Assembly: GCA_019262145.1 (NCBI GenBank)
Contig: CP076745.1
Location: forward strand, 679,093 to 743,092
Origin: Candidatus Methanogranum gryphiswaldense
Lineage (GTDB): Archaea > Thermoplasmatota > Thermoplasmata > Methanomassiliicoccales > Methanomethylophilaceae
Direction: 5' to 3'
Length of the DNA stretch: 64,000 bases
Shown: piece by piece, positions 2 to 47,309 of the stretch
Numbering within the stretch: position 1 is the stretch's first letter
Layout of the letters: each line of letters opens with the position of its first letter
The notes under the pieces: generated by a model
The model's database searches: none
Told to the model about the DNA's origin: nothing
What the model saw: only the letters and a program-made list of their open reading frames with translations
Position numbers and translations under genes: made by a program

Positions 2-997
2 GAAGCGCGCGAAGGCCGTGACCGCAGGGACAGGCCCGAGAGGTCGAACGACAGGACAGAAAGGACCGAGAGGCCTGAGAGATCGGAAAGATCTGAGAGA
101 CCCGAGAGGTCGAACGACAGGACAGAAAGGACCGAGAGGCCTGAGAGATCGGAAAGATCTGAGAGACCCGAGAGGTCGAACGACAGGACAGAAAGGACCG
201 AGAGGCCTGAGAGATCGGAAAGATCTGAGAGACCCGAGAGGTCGAACGACAGGACAGAAAGGACCGAGAGGCCTGAGAGATCGGAAAGATCTGAGAGACC
301 CGTCGAGAGAAGAAAGGATAACACCAGAACAAGGGATTCCGATTCCGATTCTGATGAACGCCGCGAGCGCAAAGAGAGATTCAACTCTGAGAACGCTGAC
401 AGATACAAGAAGAAGAATGTTCACGGGACAGAGAATTCCGAAGAGCGTGTAGACGCTGTTGATAATTCAGAGAGCGAGTCCAAGATCGTAGAGCGCAGAG
501 AGGAATCTGCTGTCATCGAATCTGTACCAAAATCTGAGATTGTCGAGGCATCCGATATCGTTTCAACAGAATACTCTGATGAATCGAAGAAGACAAGGAA
601 GGTCCGCGAAAAGGCAGACAAACCGGAAAGGGCACACAAAGAAGACGACAAGTCCACAAGGACACTTCGTGCAAAGAAGGACAGAAACACCAAGACACTG
701 TCCCCAGAGCAAGAGGTATTCAGAGACATGCTTCTTGATATGTCCTCTACACACAACGCGAAAATACTCGCGGCAGACAACTCTGTGATAAGAGAGGTCG
801 CTGTCAAGGGATTGGTAAGTTCGCTCAAAGAGGAATCTGCGGGTACATCTACCATAATCTTTGATGGTGTGATATCCCAAAGGATACTCGATGTATCTGC
901 CGAGAAGGGCATAAACACTGTGGTGGGTACCCGTAAGGGTAACATCACCAAGATGCCTGCTAATATCGTGATCTGGACCAAAGAAGACCTCTATTGA
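2..997 (+). CDS. dnaG: DNA primase DnaG (archaeal), 3' part
   Basis: The frame is open from the window edge and ends at TGA 995-997, so only the C-terminal ~331 residues are present. The last ~95 residues form the conserved end domain of archaeal DnaG, recognisable by ILDVSAEKGINTVVGTRKG and the final basic stretch. Everything before it, about residues 1-235 of the visible part, is a highly charged Arg/Glu/Ser/Asp linker that includes four exact copies of a 22-residue unit (PERSNDRTERTER...). Archaeal DnaG is a TOPRIM primase also found with the exosome; the TOPRIM core would lie upstream of the window. The linker is far longer and more repetitive than I would expect for the family. A Lon-like ATPase starts 11 bases after the stop, probably in the same transcript. 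Identity rests on the C-terminal motif and is fairly secure. Confidence 0.8.
   Translation, partial: EAREGRDRRDRPERSNDRTERTERPERSERSERPERSNDRTERTERPERSERSERPERSNDRTERTERPERSERSERPERSNDRTERTERPERSERSERPVERRKDNTRTRDSDSDSDERRERKERFNSENADRYKKKNVHGTENSEERVDAVDNSESESKIVERREESAVIESVPKSEIVEASDIVSTEYSDESKKTRKVREKADKPERAHKEDDKSTRTLRAKKDRNTKTLSPEQEVFRDMLLDMSSTHNAKILAADNSVIREVAVKGLVSSLKEESAGTSTIIFDGVISQRILDVSAEKGINTVVGTRKGNITKMPANIVIWTKEDLY
35..298 (+). repeat. four tandem copies of a 66-bp unit in the dnaG linker
   Basis: Units begin at 35, 101, 167 and 233 and read as identical by eye. Homology breaks at 299, where the sequence changes to CCCGTCGAGAG. The unit is a multiple of three and encodes 22 residues rich in Arg, Glu and Ser, so copy number can vary without breaking the dnaG frame. 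Confidence 0.95.
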
Positions 998-32723: not shown

Positions 32724-33911
32724 ATGGCAGAGGAGAAGCTGTTCACACGCAATTTCATGATATTGATAATCATGGGATTCTGTTTCAGTTTCGCTTTCCT
32801 TTCGATCTACATATGCATGGCAGATTATGTGGACGACATCTTCGGTGGTAACGCCACTTGGGGAGGGGTTGCCGCCTGCATTTTCGTTCTGGGAGCATTT
32901 CTCTCACGTATCTTTATTGCAAGATATATCGACGTCATAGGAAGAAAAAGATCCCTTTTCATCTCGATCGTAATGATGATAATTGCAAACATCCTTTACT
33001 TCTTTGTCCCGGATTTCCTATCATTGTGTCTTTTGAGGATATTTAATGGATTTTTCTACGGTTTCGGTATGTTGGCCATCAATAGCATGGTGGCTATGTT
33101 CGTACCTGCTTCCCGCCGCAGCGAAGGTATCGGATATTACATGCTGTCCTACACTCTCGCCTCAGCGATAGGGCCGTATCTGAGCATGCAATTTTTGCAT
33201 AATGGCGGATACGACTCAATATTTTTGATGACTACGGTGGTAATAATGATCCCAATACTGATGGTTGGATTCTTGAAGGTCGACCGCAGAATTATCACCG
33301 CAGAGGAACGTGAGCGTATCCATGAGTTGAAGATCGACAATCTCATTGAGAGATCTGCTTTGAGGATATCTTTGGTGGTCATGGTCTTCTTCTTTGCGTA
33401 TTCCAGTGTCTTAACGTTCGTTTCTCAGTACGGTGACAGCATCGGATTGGTAGCCGCGACGTCGTGTTTCTTCTTGGTGATCGCAGCATCTACGTTCATA
33501 TCTAGAGTTTTCGTAGGTAAGTTGGCCGATATGCACGGGGAGAATGTAGTTCTGATCCCATGTTTCATAATGTTCATCGTCGCCTTGGTGATACTGAGCT
33601 ATGCAGATTCTGCTTTGATGCTGTTGGTGGCAGCATTCATGATCGGGTTCGGTGTAGCTCTGGTGAACTCTGTTGGACAATCGATAGTCATACGTCAGTC
33701 GAGACCGGACAGATATCCGATATGCATGTCAACATTCCAGATATTCATGGACATGTCCAGCGGGTTCGGGCCGTTCGTGTTCGGTACGCTGATAGTGCTC
33801 TACGGCTTCCATGACACATACTTGATAGCTGCAGGGTTGGGAGTTATCTCGTTGATATTGTACATGTATCTGCACGGGTTCAAGATGATGAAGAAAGAAA
33901 GCAATTGTTGA
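32724..33911 (+). CDS. MFS transporter
   Basis: The 395-residue protein has about 12 hydrophobic segments, the loop 2-3 motif RYIDVIGRKRSLF (about 70-82), and the parallel motif GKLADMHGENVV in the second half, so it is a complete major facilitator. The substrate is unknown; the overall look is of a drug/sugar-type exporter. AAAATAAATAC at 32687-32697 is TATA-like 27 bases before the ATG, predicting a leaderless mRNA. The last 12 codons and the stop lie inside a 35-bp direct repeat. Confidence 0.75.
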   Translation: MAEEKLFTRNFMILIIMGFCFSFAFLSIYICMADYVDDIFGGNATWGGVAACIFVLGAFLSRIFIARYIDVIGRKRSLFISIVMMIIANILYFFVPDFLSLCLLRIFNGFFYGFGMLAINSMVAMFVPASRRSEGIGYYMLSYTLASAIGPYLSMQFLHNGGYDSIFLMTTVVIMIPILMVGFLKVDRRIITAEERERIHELKIDNLIERSALRISLVVMVFFFAYSSVLTFVSQYGDSIGLVAATSCFFLVIAASTFISRVFVGKLADMHGENVVLIPCFIMFIVALVILSYADSALMLLVAAFMIGFGVALVNSVGQSIVIRQSRPDRYPICMSTFQIFMDMSSGFGPFVFGTLIVLYGFHDTYLIAAGLGVISLILYMYLHGFKMMKKESNC

Positions 33912-33981
33912 TAACACGACGTCGCGGCTACCAATCCGATGCTGTCGTTCAAGATGATGAAGAAAGAAAGCAATTGTTGAT
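33878..33981. repeat. 35-bp direct repeat flanking a 34-bp inverted copy of MFS-gene sequence
   Basis: Positions 33878-33912 and 33947-33981 are identical by eye and include the MFS stop region. The 34 bases between them (33913-33946) are the exact reverse complement of 33435-33468 inside the MFS gene. This pattern is what a replication template switch leaves behind. Confidence 0.9.
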
Positions 33982-35707: not shown

Positions 35708-36004
35708 ATGAGCATATTGAAACATGGTAAGGATTGTAAATGTCCAAAGTGCACAGGCAAGCATGATGCAGATTGTAAATGCGCAGAGTGTGTAGGTAAG
35801 GAAGTTATGCATGGTAAGGACTGCAAATGTCCAAAGTGCACAGGCAAACATGACAAGGCCTGCGAGTGCTCTGAGTGCATGAAAGAGGTCAAACATACGA
35901 AGGACTGCAAATGTCCAAAGTGCACAGGCAAACATGACAAGAACTGTCAGTGTTCTGAGTGCGCTGGTGTAGTGGAGCACAAGAAGTGCTGCTGCAGATC
36001 TTGA
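35708..36004 (+). CDS. Cys-rich CxCxxC triple-repeat protein, long form
   Basis: The 98-residue protein is built from three ~29-residue units, each HGKDCKCPKCTGKHD plus a second CxCxxC (CKCAEC, CECSEC, CQCSEC), and ends in CCCRS. It has 27 or so cysteines and histidines out of 98 residues and no hydrophobic core, as in metallothioneins. DNA of units 2 and 3 is identical over ~37 bases, so the repeats are recent or kept uniform. It is the partner of the gene at 34854-35051. A terminator follows at 36029. Confidence 0.65.
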   Translation: MSILKHGKDCKCPKCTGKHDADCKCAECVGKEVMHGKDCKCPKCTGKHDKACECSECMKEVKHTKDCKCPKCTGKHDKNCQCSECAGVVEHKKCCCRS

Positions 36005-44376: not shown

Positions 44377-44496
44377 ATGGAAGGTCCGAATGAAATTCCC
44401 CGCGAAGATCTGTGCCTGGCGGTTTCACGCTCGGTATCAGATCGCATGTATTGTAGGAGAGCTCATGAAGATTTCATGCGGGGCGGTCCCGTATGA
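44377..44496 (+). CDS. 39-residue ORF overlapping the Cas9-like gene by ATGA
   Basis: The frame runs from ATG 44377 to TGA 44494-44496. That stop shares ATGA with the start of the Cas9-like gene at 44493. It has a good ribosome site and lies right after the predicted transcript start. The product is MEGPNEIPRED followed by a basic, Cys-containing middle (SDRMYCRRAHED) and FMRGGPV. No family is recognised. It may couple translation of the large gene, or be a remnant of its original N-terminus region in another frame, although no RuvC-I motif is found in any frame here. Confidence 0.45.
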   Translation: MEGPNEIPREDLCLAVSRSVSDRMYCRRAHEDFMRGGPV

Positions 44497-47309
44497 ACTG
44501 CAATTTTGTTGAATCGGTCCATACTGATTGGCCGACAACCGACAAAAAACAATTAACACCAAAATTTGAGAAACAACTGATATGGCGGATCAACCTTTTT
44601 GAGGACGGCGACCCCATCGGACAAGGCAGGAATCTGAGATGTTCCGAACGCAGACGGATCAGGAGAGGACAGAGGATTACTCTACTTCAAGAATTGTTCG
44701 ATAATGAGATGCGCAAAGTGGATCCAAAATTTTTTAAGAGAAGAAGCATCGACCGCGGGGGCCTTGACGACCCTACACATGGCCTAGATAGATCTGTTGA
44801 CGATTCGGACGATTATTTTAAGAGATGTTGCAAAAAATATCCTACGATATACCATTTGAGAAAGCATATTGCAACCACCGATGTCCGTCCCGATATTCGT
44901 TTGTTCTATCTTGCGGTGCGCAATATAATAGAACACAGAGGACACTTTCTGTTTGAAGGCATGCCCGATGATAGATCTCCCGACCTAGGTTGGATCGTGG
45001 ACCGGACACTGACGTATCTGCGTGACGAGTTCGGGATTAATATGCACGCGGACGGCATAATGTCGGATGTGGAGTCCACTTTATTGGATAGAGGGCTCAG
45101 AATAAAGGACAAGAGGGCGAGGCTGTACTCTTTGCTATCAGCTGACGATGTTCCAAAACGTTCGTTCTTGGATCTGCTCATAGGAAGGACGGTAAGGATC
45201 GTGGATATCTTCGGAGATAGGGTTCTGAACGACATCGAGATATCCTTCAAGGGTCAGGACTACGATGAAGATCATGACAGATACGAGGACATTTTGGGTA
45301 CCGAGAGGACGGTCCTGTTGGATCTGATGAAGTTGATCTATGATTGGTCGACCGTGCGTGAATTCACAGAGGGTGGTCGTCAGATATCCAGTATCATAGT
45401 GGATAGATACGAACAATACGAAAAGGACATGAAGATATTGAGGGACGTATCGAAGAAATTTCTTTCTCCGAAAGAATATGTTGAGCTCTTCAAATCGGAC
45501 AATGTGAAGAATAACCATCGTCATTACACAGGGACCCGTAAGAAAAGCGATCCAAATGAAAGGACCTGCACACAGGAGAAGTTTAACAGATATCTGAAGG
45601 AGACCTTCGAGGATGTGGAAGCCAAGGACCCTTACCTCAAATATCTGCAGTGGAGGACATACGAAGGATCGTTCGCACCTAAGAGGAGGCCAGATCTGGA
45701 CAATGTTATACCGAACTGCATGCATAGGAGGGAATTGGAAAAGATCGTGGAGAACATGTCCAGATTCTATACTTTTTTGAACGAGGACGATGGGAGCGGG
45801 ATGTCTAATGGTGGGAAGATAATCTTACTCTGCACATTCAGGATACCTTATAACATCGGTCCGACGGATATCACTGACCGGTCATGGACAAGTAGCGGTC
45901 AAGATGCCGCGGTATCCTGGACCTCTGAGAGCATAACCGATCTGGAGAAATGTTCCAGGGGATTCATAGACAATATATGCGGCAGATGTACGTATCTGCC
46001 CGAGGAGAAGGCGCTACCAAATGATTCCGTATTGTATTCCAGATGCAAGCTATATGACGAGCTCAATGGCCTAAGGGTCAATGGTAACAGGATCAATCCT
46101 GAGATGAAGATGGAACTGGTGAACGGCCTGTTCTGTGATATGGATAGATGTGGACGGAGGGTTACTGTCAAGGATATCAGGAGACATCTGGCGTCCAAAG
46201 GACTTATTTCAGAAAATGATATAATAACCGGGGTCGATGGGAACGTCAGGTCAGATCTGAGGTCTGAGATGTTGATCAAGAGCATCATAGGCGAAAGATC
46301 GAGAGATCTGCGTATGGTCGAGGACATTATCCACGACGTAGCAGTTCACAATGCGGATGGTTGCGGATTGAGGGAGAGGATCGCCCGCAAGTATTCGGGC
46401 AGATTGACAGATGATGAAATTTACCGTCTGTCGGAACTGCATTCTTCTGGTTGGGGGAAGCTATCGGAACGTATGCTAACAGAGGTCCGCTATCCAGAAG
46501 GTTCGCCGTTCGAGGGGATGAACCTTTTCGATGCATTGGAGTGTACCAATCTCAACATGGATGAACTGTTGAACGATAGGTACGGGCTCTTGTCGAAGAC
46601 AATGGCGACAGTACATGATACTGTGACAGTACAGGATGACGGGATGCAGGGCGCTGTTGCAGTTCCTGCATATACTAATGACATGCGGATACCAAAGATA
46701 TGGGGATGTCTTTACACGATAGATAGCATTCTAAAGATGACAGGATGCGATCTGACGGGGACTGTGATCGAAACCGAGGACAATAGGGTCGACTCAGGGT
46801 CATCGTCAAGAAAAGAGCTCCTTCTTAAGCTGTACAGCCAACACATTGACGATGAAAGGGATTGGGTCGGGGAGATCTCCAAGATCGATGAAGGCAGACT
46901 GCACAGGAGGAAGGTGTTCGCTTACTATATGCAGAAGGGACACTGCATCTACTGTAACAGACCGATACATCTTGAGAGGATAGATGAGGAGGATTACAAT
47001 ATGGATCACATCATACCGCGGTCGTTGCTGATGGATGATGACATCGATACCAACATGGCACTTACGCACAAGGAATGCAACCAACGCAAATCCAACACAT
47101 ATCCTGTCTCGCTCGATATACAGAGGAGCATGCGCAGATTCTGGCTTGAACTCAGGAACGAGGGGTTCATCACAGCGGAGAAATATGACAGACTGACTCG
47201 CATGACATCGATATCCGAGATGGAATTCGAGTGTCTGATGGCACGTGGACTGACAGAGAGGAACGGGATCAGGAGCATAAACGGAGAATATTGGCTGCAC
47301 ATGGTCTGA
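44493..47309 (+). CDS. Cas9 homologue with dead RuvC-I, intact HNH, and no RuvC-III or PI domain
   Basis: The 938-residue protein follows Cas9, closest to type II-A, from near its N-terminus to the end of HNH. Visible parts are a degraded RuvC-I segment (residues ~3-40, where F5 aligns with the catalytic Asp and WPTTD replaces WAVTD); an Arg-rich bridge helix (46-70) with LLQELFDNEMRKVDPKFF; YPTIYHLRKHI and EHRGHFLFEG of the REC lobe; TFRIPYNIGP and CTYLPEEKALPNDSVLY; a RuvC-II-like VIETED (Glu 760); and HNH with Asp 838, His 839 and Asn 863 plus CIYC at 818-821. The protein ends about 40 residues after the HNH core, in the second linker. The RuvC-III HHAxDA motif and the PAM-interacting domain are absent, and no continuation is found downstream. 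A 938-codon frame without interruption argues against recent decay. Confidence 0.85.
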   Translation: MNCNFVESVHTDWPTTDKKQLTPKFEKQLIWRINLFEDGDPIGQGRNLRCSERRRIRRGQRITLLQELFDNEMRKVDPKFFKRRSIDRGGLDDPTHGLDRSVDDSDDYFKRCCKKYPTIYHLRKHIATTDVRPDIRLFYLAVRNIIEHRGHFLFEGMPDDRSPDLGWIVDRTLTYLRDEFGINMHADGIMSDVESTLLDRGLRIKDKRARLYSLLSADDVPKRSFLDLLIGRTVRIVDIFGDRVLNDIEISFKGQDYDEDHDRYEDILGTERTVLLDLMKLIYDWSTVREFTEGGRQISSIIVDRYEQYEKDMKILRDVSKKFLSPKEYVELFKSDNVKNNHRHYTGTRKKSDPNERTCTQEKFNRYLKETFEDVEAKDPYLKYLQWRTYEGSFAPKRRPDLDNVIPNCMHRRELEKIVENMSRFYTFLNEDDGSGMSNGGKIILLCTFRIPYNIGPTDITDRSWTSSGQDAAVSWTSESITDLEKCSRGFIDNICGRCTYLPEEKALPNDSVLYSRCKLYDELNGLRVNGNRINPEMKMELVNGLFCDMDRCGRRVTVKDIRRHLASKGLISENDIITGVDGNVRSDLRSEMLIKSIIGERSRDLRMVEDIIHDVAVHNADGCGLRERIARKYSGRLTDDEIYRLSELHSSGWGKLSERMLTEVRYPEGSPFEGMNLFDALECTNLNMDELLNDRYGLLSKTMATVHDTVTVQDDGMQGAVAVPAYTNDMRIPKIWGCLYTIDSILKMTGCDLTGTVIETEDNRVDSGSSSRKELLLKLYSQHIDDERDWVGEISKIDEGRLHRRKVFAYYMQKGHCIYCNRPIHLERIDEEDYNMDHIIPRSLLMDDDIDTNMALTHKECNQRKSNTYPVSLDIQRSMRRFWLELRNEGFITAEKYDRLTRMTSISEMEFECLMARGLTERNGIRSINGEYWLHMV

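Follow-up and report, generated by a model that had tools for sequence, protein, structure and literature searches.

The stretch of DNA analysed here, referred to as the window, comprises 64,000 nucleotides with a GC content of 43.5% and belongs to the genome of Candidatus Methanogranum gryphiswaldense, a methanogenic archaeon of the order Methanomassiliicoccales. The genome consists of one contig of 1,516,968 bases and is 99.93% complete. At positions 44493 to 47309 of the window lies an open reading frame of 938 codons which runs from an ATG to a TGA with no internal stop codon (the whole open frame amounts to 946 residues). Its product is a homologue of the CRISPR-associated nuclease Cas9 which comprises bridge helix, REC lobe and HNH nuclease domain and in which the RuvC fold is incomplete and the C-terminal half absent. 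In window coordinates, and with residue numbers of the 938-residue protein, the features are the following:

44493..47309, + strand: orphan REC-HNH Cas9 derivative, 938 residues (open reading frame; Cas9 family models; solved Cas9 structures)
44505..44603, + strand: RuvC-I remnant, residues 5-37
44604..44723, + strand: arginine-rich bridge helix, residues 38-77, mostly conserved
44724..46583, + strand: REC lobe, residues 78-697
46584..46817, + strand: RuvC-II remnant, residues 698-775, Glu760 kept
46908..47162, + strand: HNH nuclease domain, residues 806-890
47163..47309, + strand: L2 linker and short C-terminal tail

Retained and missing parts of the protein

The NCBIfam Cas9 model TIGR01865 matches the protein with an E-value of 1.2e-114 and 384.7 bits (cut-off 100). 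The Pfam model Cas9_REC matches residues 180-697 with 1.4e-83 and 282 bits (cut-off 25) and the HNH_4 model, to which only one protein of the host genome belongs, matches with 8.7e-13, while the bridge-helix model Cas9-BH, at 24.2 bits, stays slightly under its cut-off of 26.3. No PLMP-type family is found among the Pfam matches. In a search against solved structures all top matches are Cas9 (9jwk with 1.5e-88 over residues 12-928, SpCas9 with about 1e-70), and the protein is collinear with residues 42-922 of SpCas9, in agreement with a first-pass annotation of this DNA which had described an uninterrupted Cas9-like frame extending to the L2 linker. Judged from its sequence, the protein is genuinely homologous to Cas9 over the bridge helix, REC and HNH. 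The GC content of its codon positions resembles that of the neighbouring genes (0.56 at third positions).

The catalytic residues of the HNH domain align as D838, H839 and N863, all of them kept and numbered nearly as in SpCas9. Cys818, Cys821 and Cys862 fit the CxxC...CxxC pattern seen in the related methanogens, the fourth position being occupied by His859. Within the bridge helix R46, R49, R53, R54, R57, R58 and R61 are invariant across the alignment (A2). Two features which define a Cas9, i.e. the complete split RuvC (I, II and III) and the C-terminal WED/PAM-interacting domain (PAM, protospacer adjacent motif), are lacking in the 938-residue protein. Alignment with full-length relatives places the position of the RuvC-I Asp, by its spacing to Trp13, on Phe5, while the RuvC-II Glu is kept as E760. 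The RuvC-III His/His/Asp and all downstream sequence are absent from the open reading frame, the alignment stopping at the RQLVET position with nothing of RuvC-III or the C-terminal half after about residue 922. These alignments, as well as the intact HNH triad, bear out the residue assignments of the first-pass annotation.

Beside the open reading frame no remnants of RuvC-I, RuvC-III or the C-terminal part score above shuffled controls. A stretch RSIN...EYWLHMV, which by eye and in alignment had looked like a shortened RSINDYHHAKDAYLN and hence like a C-terminal RuvC-III remnant, was rejected as it scored below shuffled controls, and so was a frameshifted RuvC-I upstream of the frame, which was undetectable against such controls. 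The missing part might be encoded elsewhere if the protein were one half of a natural split Cas9 with a RuvC/C-terminal partner, an arrangement for which there is a precedent in engineered SpCas9 lobes which, expressed apart, rejoin on a single guide RNA (reviewed in PMC6098869). The C-terminal 402 residues of L003, a Cas9 from the same family, however, find no match in the complete host genome at E-values up to 10, whereas in three relatives this query does detect the homologous part, and a split Cas9 is accordingly very improbable.

The fold was predicted with AlphaFold2 on an alignment of 43 sequences. The mean predicted local distance difference test score (pLDDT) is 77.8, with values of 80-95 for the bridge helix, most of the REC lobe and HNH (mostly 75-95 if residues 806-890 are taken as a whole). 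The segments 1-22, 31-42, 712-732, 754-770 and 916-938 fall below 50; they contain RuvC sequence or its borders. The RuvC-I remnant reaches about 23-50 and the RuvC-II remnant lies partly below 50, the remnants as a whole mostly so. In a Foldseek search the model matches SpCas9 structures at 3e-40, SpCas9 and StCas9 being the best fold matches. Structure prediction, proposed as a check in the first-pass annotation, thus yields both the REC and the HNH fold; being alignment-based, the model indicates compatibility with the fold and says nothing on activity.

Distribution of constraint along the protein

In a tree of 40 Cas9 proteins, also called for by the first-pass annotation, the window protein forms a long branch of 1.34 substitutions per site, compared to about 0.3-0.63 for its methanogen sisters. 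As a share of the tree length this branch accounts for 0.278 in RuvC-II and for 0.103 in HNH; in REC the share is 0.060-0.068 in three stretches and 0.089 and 0.101 in two others, and all shares outside RuvC-II range from 0.052 to 0.140. The RuvC-II branch of the window protein measures 5.98 versus 0.41-1.17 in the sisters. The same unevenness is seen in an identity ratio calculated per domain by dividing the identity between window protein and sisters by that among the sisters. This ratio is 0.32 (95% interval 0.15-0.51) in RuvC-I, where the sisters show 0.95-1.09, and 0.42 (0.27-0.57) in RuvC-II, compared to 0.71 in the bridge helix, 0.78 (0.73-0.83) in REC, 0.86 in L1, 0.76 in HNH and 0.72 in L2. 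Site permutation supports the confinement of the loss to RuvC with p = 1e-4. If each of the seven sisters is used as query in turn, values of 0.79-1.09 are obtained in the RuvC parts and none of the seven exhibits the uneven pattern.

The number of stop codons was assessed in a simulation in which the RuvC parts were drifted to the observed excess loss and the same rate was put on the whole gene. On average about 17-28 stop codons arise under such drift, with a minimum of 5, whereas none is observed in 938 codons. Hence, neither a uniform loss of constraint nor stops or frameshifts, as expected of a pseudogene, are found, the relaxation being restricted to RuvC. Because the collapse of identity is confined to RuvC and stops are absent, the observations are most simply explained by an ancient loss of the RuvC fold with continued selection on REC and HNH. 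The long-lived truncation suggested by the first-pass annotation would thus be upheld, the loss looking old.

This reading has to be weighed against that of a decaying relic, i.e. a fast-evolving Cas9 which recently lost its C-terminal half and whose leftover frame is still unbroken. A relic would agree with a single copy in one genome devoid of cas1 and of the relatives' repeat (see below), and the open frame could have survived a brief spell of neutral evolution (about 20-80 substitutions). It would also agree with the general acceleration of the protein, which departs from other Cas9 proteins at 24 of 99 near-invariant positions, compared to at most 8 in any other sequence; the changes include D836N in HNH and several REC residues. 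The constrained REC and HNH regions and the stops predicted if the entire gene had drifted neutrally at the rate of RuvC argue in the opposite direction, and we consider a relic rather unlikely. We favour a selected and repurposed gene, and the window protein is quite probably a retained Cas9 derivative without RuvC.

Possibly the truncation was preceded by a stage at which the protein was full-length and its RuvC degenerate; against it can be set the full-length, RuvC-dead Cas9 L090, whose RuvC relaxation is milder (0.58-0.65). This protein, encoded by an uncultured member of the Clostridia (CALVME010000027.1, 4996-8985), resembles the window protein in that its RuvC-I Asp is replaced by Ser and its RuvC-III His-His by Ser-Tyr, in that its HNH triad is intact and in that its 11.4-kb contig harbours no recognised cas genes or array. 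It differs in its full length of 1329 residues and in the presence of cas1 on another contig of its genome. Since L090 is RuvC-dead yet HNH-intact, loss of RuvC with retention of HNH may have happened more than once; the relatives of L090 are canonical at the RuvC sites wherever these are covered, and L090 is a single case. As a separate observation, the Cas9 homologue L134 shows NIEHIYPQ at its HNH motif, the catalytic Asp being replaced by Glu, unlike in its relatives.

Relatives and genomic surroundings

Type II systems were missing from the complete archaeal genomes of CRISPRCasdb in 2019 (PMC7145573), and the first-pass annotation had taken Cas9 for a rarity in archaea. For the family of the host this view could not be maintained, as seven further genomes contain homologues, 35-38% identical to the window protein. 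Six are full-length, with open frames of 1334-1370 residues, and the seventh is interrupted by the end of its contig. The family's full-length Cas9 loci are ordinary type II-A-like systems since L003 (locus L021, 8861-19696) lies in a cas9-cas1-cas2-csn2 series with about 74 repeats of an array behind it, the genes being named from their order and sequence. Arrays are also located near the Cas9 of five other relatives. L021, L022, L024 and L026 are type II-A-like Cas9 loci in the family's methanogens, and related repeats starting GTTTGAGAGTGTTG recur in different genera. The family's full-length type II-A-like Cas9 proteins (L003-L008 and L029) share with the window protein, at 34-38% identity, the collinear bridge helix, REC, L1, HNH and L2 and the zinc-type Cys pattern of HNH but, in contrast to it, have kept RuvC-I, -II and -III and the C-terminal half.

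Orthologues sharing this truncation, for which the first-pass annotation had proposed to look, did not emerge: there is no second truncated copy among 147 genomes of the order, and the gene is absent from the two genus mates. When genome and viral contigs were scanned for patterns with the single protein, no close orthologues came up, and phage and plasmid collections gave distant Cas9 only. In the full-text literature, with most subscription journals outside the search, no orphan, solitary or RuvC-less Cas9 was found; the one match concerns a mobile element of Campylobacter, and its abstract mentions no protein of this kind.

The host genome gives no match to Cas1, whereas the control genomes are positive in nine of nine cases, and contains no copy of the relatives' repeat GTTTGAGAGTGTTGACAAA genome-wide at up to 3 mismatches. 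No CRISPR array is present in 120 kb around the window, the region to which the search for unrelated arrays was limited. Two tandem runs were flagged inside the window, neither of them a spacer-like array. The plausible promoter of the first-pass annotation found no support, with 7 promoter-like matches versus 6.8 expected by chance in a scan for bacterial sigma-70 sites only.

From their sequences we take the neighbouring genes to encode CO dehydrogenase-like and oleate-hydratase-like proteins, an aldo-keto reductase and a carboxymuconolactone-decarboxylase-like protein. The aldo-keto reductase gene on the 5' side of the open reading frame is missing from both genus mates, and the homologues of the 3' neighbour in these genomes are only 28-50% identical. 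None of eight neighbouring genes tested matches a defence model. This result bears on a further explanation, namely a defence or stress nuclease whose HNH domain would cut DNA unguided and whose REC lobe would sense something else. The HNH domain does match PtuB-type defence HNH models too, far below its Cas9 score, but the retention of REC would be unexplained unless a nucleic acid were sensed, and we regard such a nuclease as improbable.

Elsewhere in the window, the 3' end of a gene for a transporter-like protein carries a 34-nucleotide perfect inverted copy and a 35-nucleotide perfect direct duplication (33435-33468 and 33878-33981); they look like products of template switching or of an assembly slip. 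Three 81-nucleotide tandem repeats at 35711-35962 read as Cys-rich units (HGKDCKCPKCTGKHD... and similar), and 66-nucleotide tandem repeats (CCCGAGAGGTCGAACGAC...) at the left edge of the window (20-358) probably represent a low-complexity coding stretch.

Possible function of the REC-HNH protein

It is the task of REC and the bridge helix in Cas9 to hold guide RNA and RNA:DNA hybrid; the linkers L1 and L2 swing the HNH domain onto the DNA strand of this hybrid. We give a probability of roughly 0.45 to the interpretation that the window protein is an orphan II-A-like Cas9 derivative repurposed outside CRISPR-Cas, its mechanism being read loosely. Accordingly worded, a type II-A-like Cas9 would long ago have lost its RuvC fold and its C-terminal (WED/PAM-interacting) half and have left CRISPR-Cas, while selection would persist on bridge helix, REC lobe and HNH nuclease. 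The kept set corresponds exactly to the parts which grip a guide RNA and the RNA:DNA hybrid and then swing HNH onto the RNA-paired DNA strand, the lost set to PAM reading, the cut of the non-target strand and half of the contact to the guide scaffold. Because the former are kept and PAM reading and the RuvC cut are lost, we propose, with considerable doubt, that the protein might act as an RNA- or hybrid-gated single-strand DNA nuclease which dispenses with a PAM search of double-stranded DNA. The cue might be a non-CRISPR RNA or the direct sensing of RNA:DNA hybrids. In a novel form of this mechanism, independent of RuvC, PAM and CRISPR and to be regarded as unlikely in its details, REC would recognise RNA:DNA hybrids, either R-loops or those of a host-encoded RNA with its target, and HNH would thereby be licensed to nick the DNA in the hybrid. 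The REC-HNH protein would then have to be expressed, to bind RNA or hybrids, to nick DNA and to fulfil a cellular role.

Several points weigh against a repurposed nuclease. Besides the general acceleration described above, the gene is known from one genome, so that constraint is read off a single long branch. A guide-like RNA in the 229-nucleotide gap upstream of the open reading frame was rejected, as the folding of the gap is unremarkable (z = -1.0), no Rfam family matches and no anti-repeat above background is present near the frame, the latter by a weak method which, tried on four relatives, yielded a clear repeat partner in just one. Deletion mapping of SpCas9 has identified REC1, the RuvC core and the C-terminal domain as indispensable, and HNH, REC2 and REC3 as dispensable, for guided DNA binding (PMC8476515). 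Set against this map, the window protein keeps the dispensable parts while lacking needed ones and can therefore not, under the rules known so far, be a guided binder of the standard kind.

The protein might instead be an RNA-binding regulator or decoy in which REC holds RNA and a non-cutting HNH is kept for folding or gating. While the conserved bridge-helix arginines and the preservation of REC across 620 residues would suit such a role, the complete catalytic triad and metal-ligand pattern of HNH would not, and no partner RNA is found nearby, which renders it unlikely, albeit less so than the defence nuclease.

Known proteins resemble the window protein in part. SpCas9 and StCas9, closest in predicted fold and with the HNH triad at nearly equal numbering, possess the RuvC nuclease, the PAM-interacting domain and the CRISPR neighbourhood which the window protein lacks. 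The MISER minimal dCas9 (PMC8476515) likewise remains folded despite large domain deletions but retains REC1, RuvC core and C-terminal domain and has lost HNH, REC2 and REC3, the opposite set. IshB, a name which occurs in PMC12477157, denotes HNH-only relatives of the IscB family, similar in idea as HNH proteins without RuvC; the window protein, in contrast, is a reduced Cas9 with a REC region of 620 residues and not of the IscB type. The architecture of the latter is different in a further respect. IshB proteins are small and combine a PLMP domain with HNH, a REC lobe being absent.

Cas9 is usually held to need RuvC as a scaffold and the C-terminal domain for the binding of guide and PAM, a view with which the deletion map of SpCas9 is in line. 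What is new, as read from the gene, is a Cas9 derivative which lacks both of these defining features and is unaccompanied by cas1. If REC and HNH are truly under selection, a hybrid-sensing module which cuts the target strand can stand alone. To our knowledge, few examples of Cas9 exaptation outside immunity exist; the window protein, if our interpretation is true, would be such a case and would provide a compact PAM-free nickase scaffold for study.
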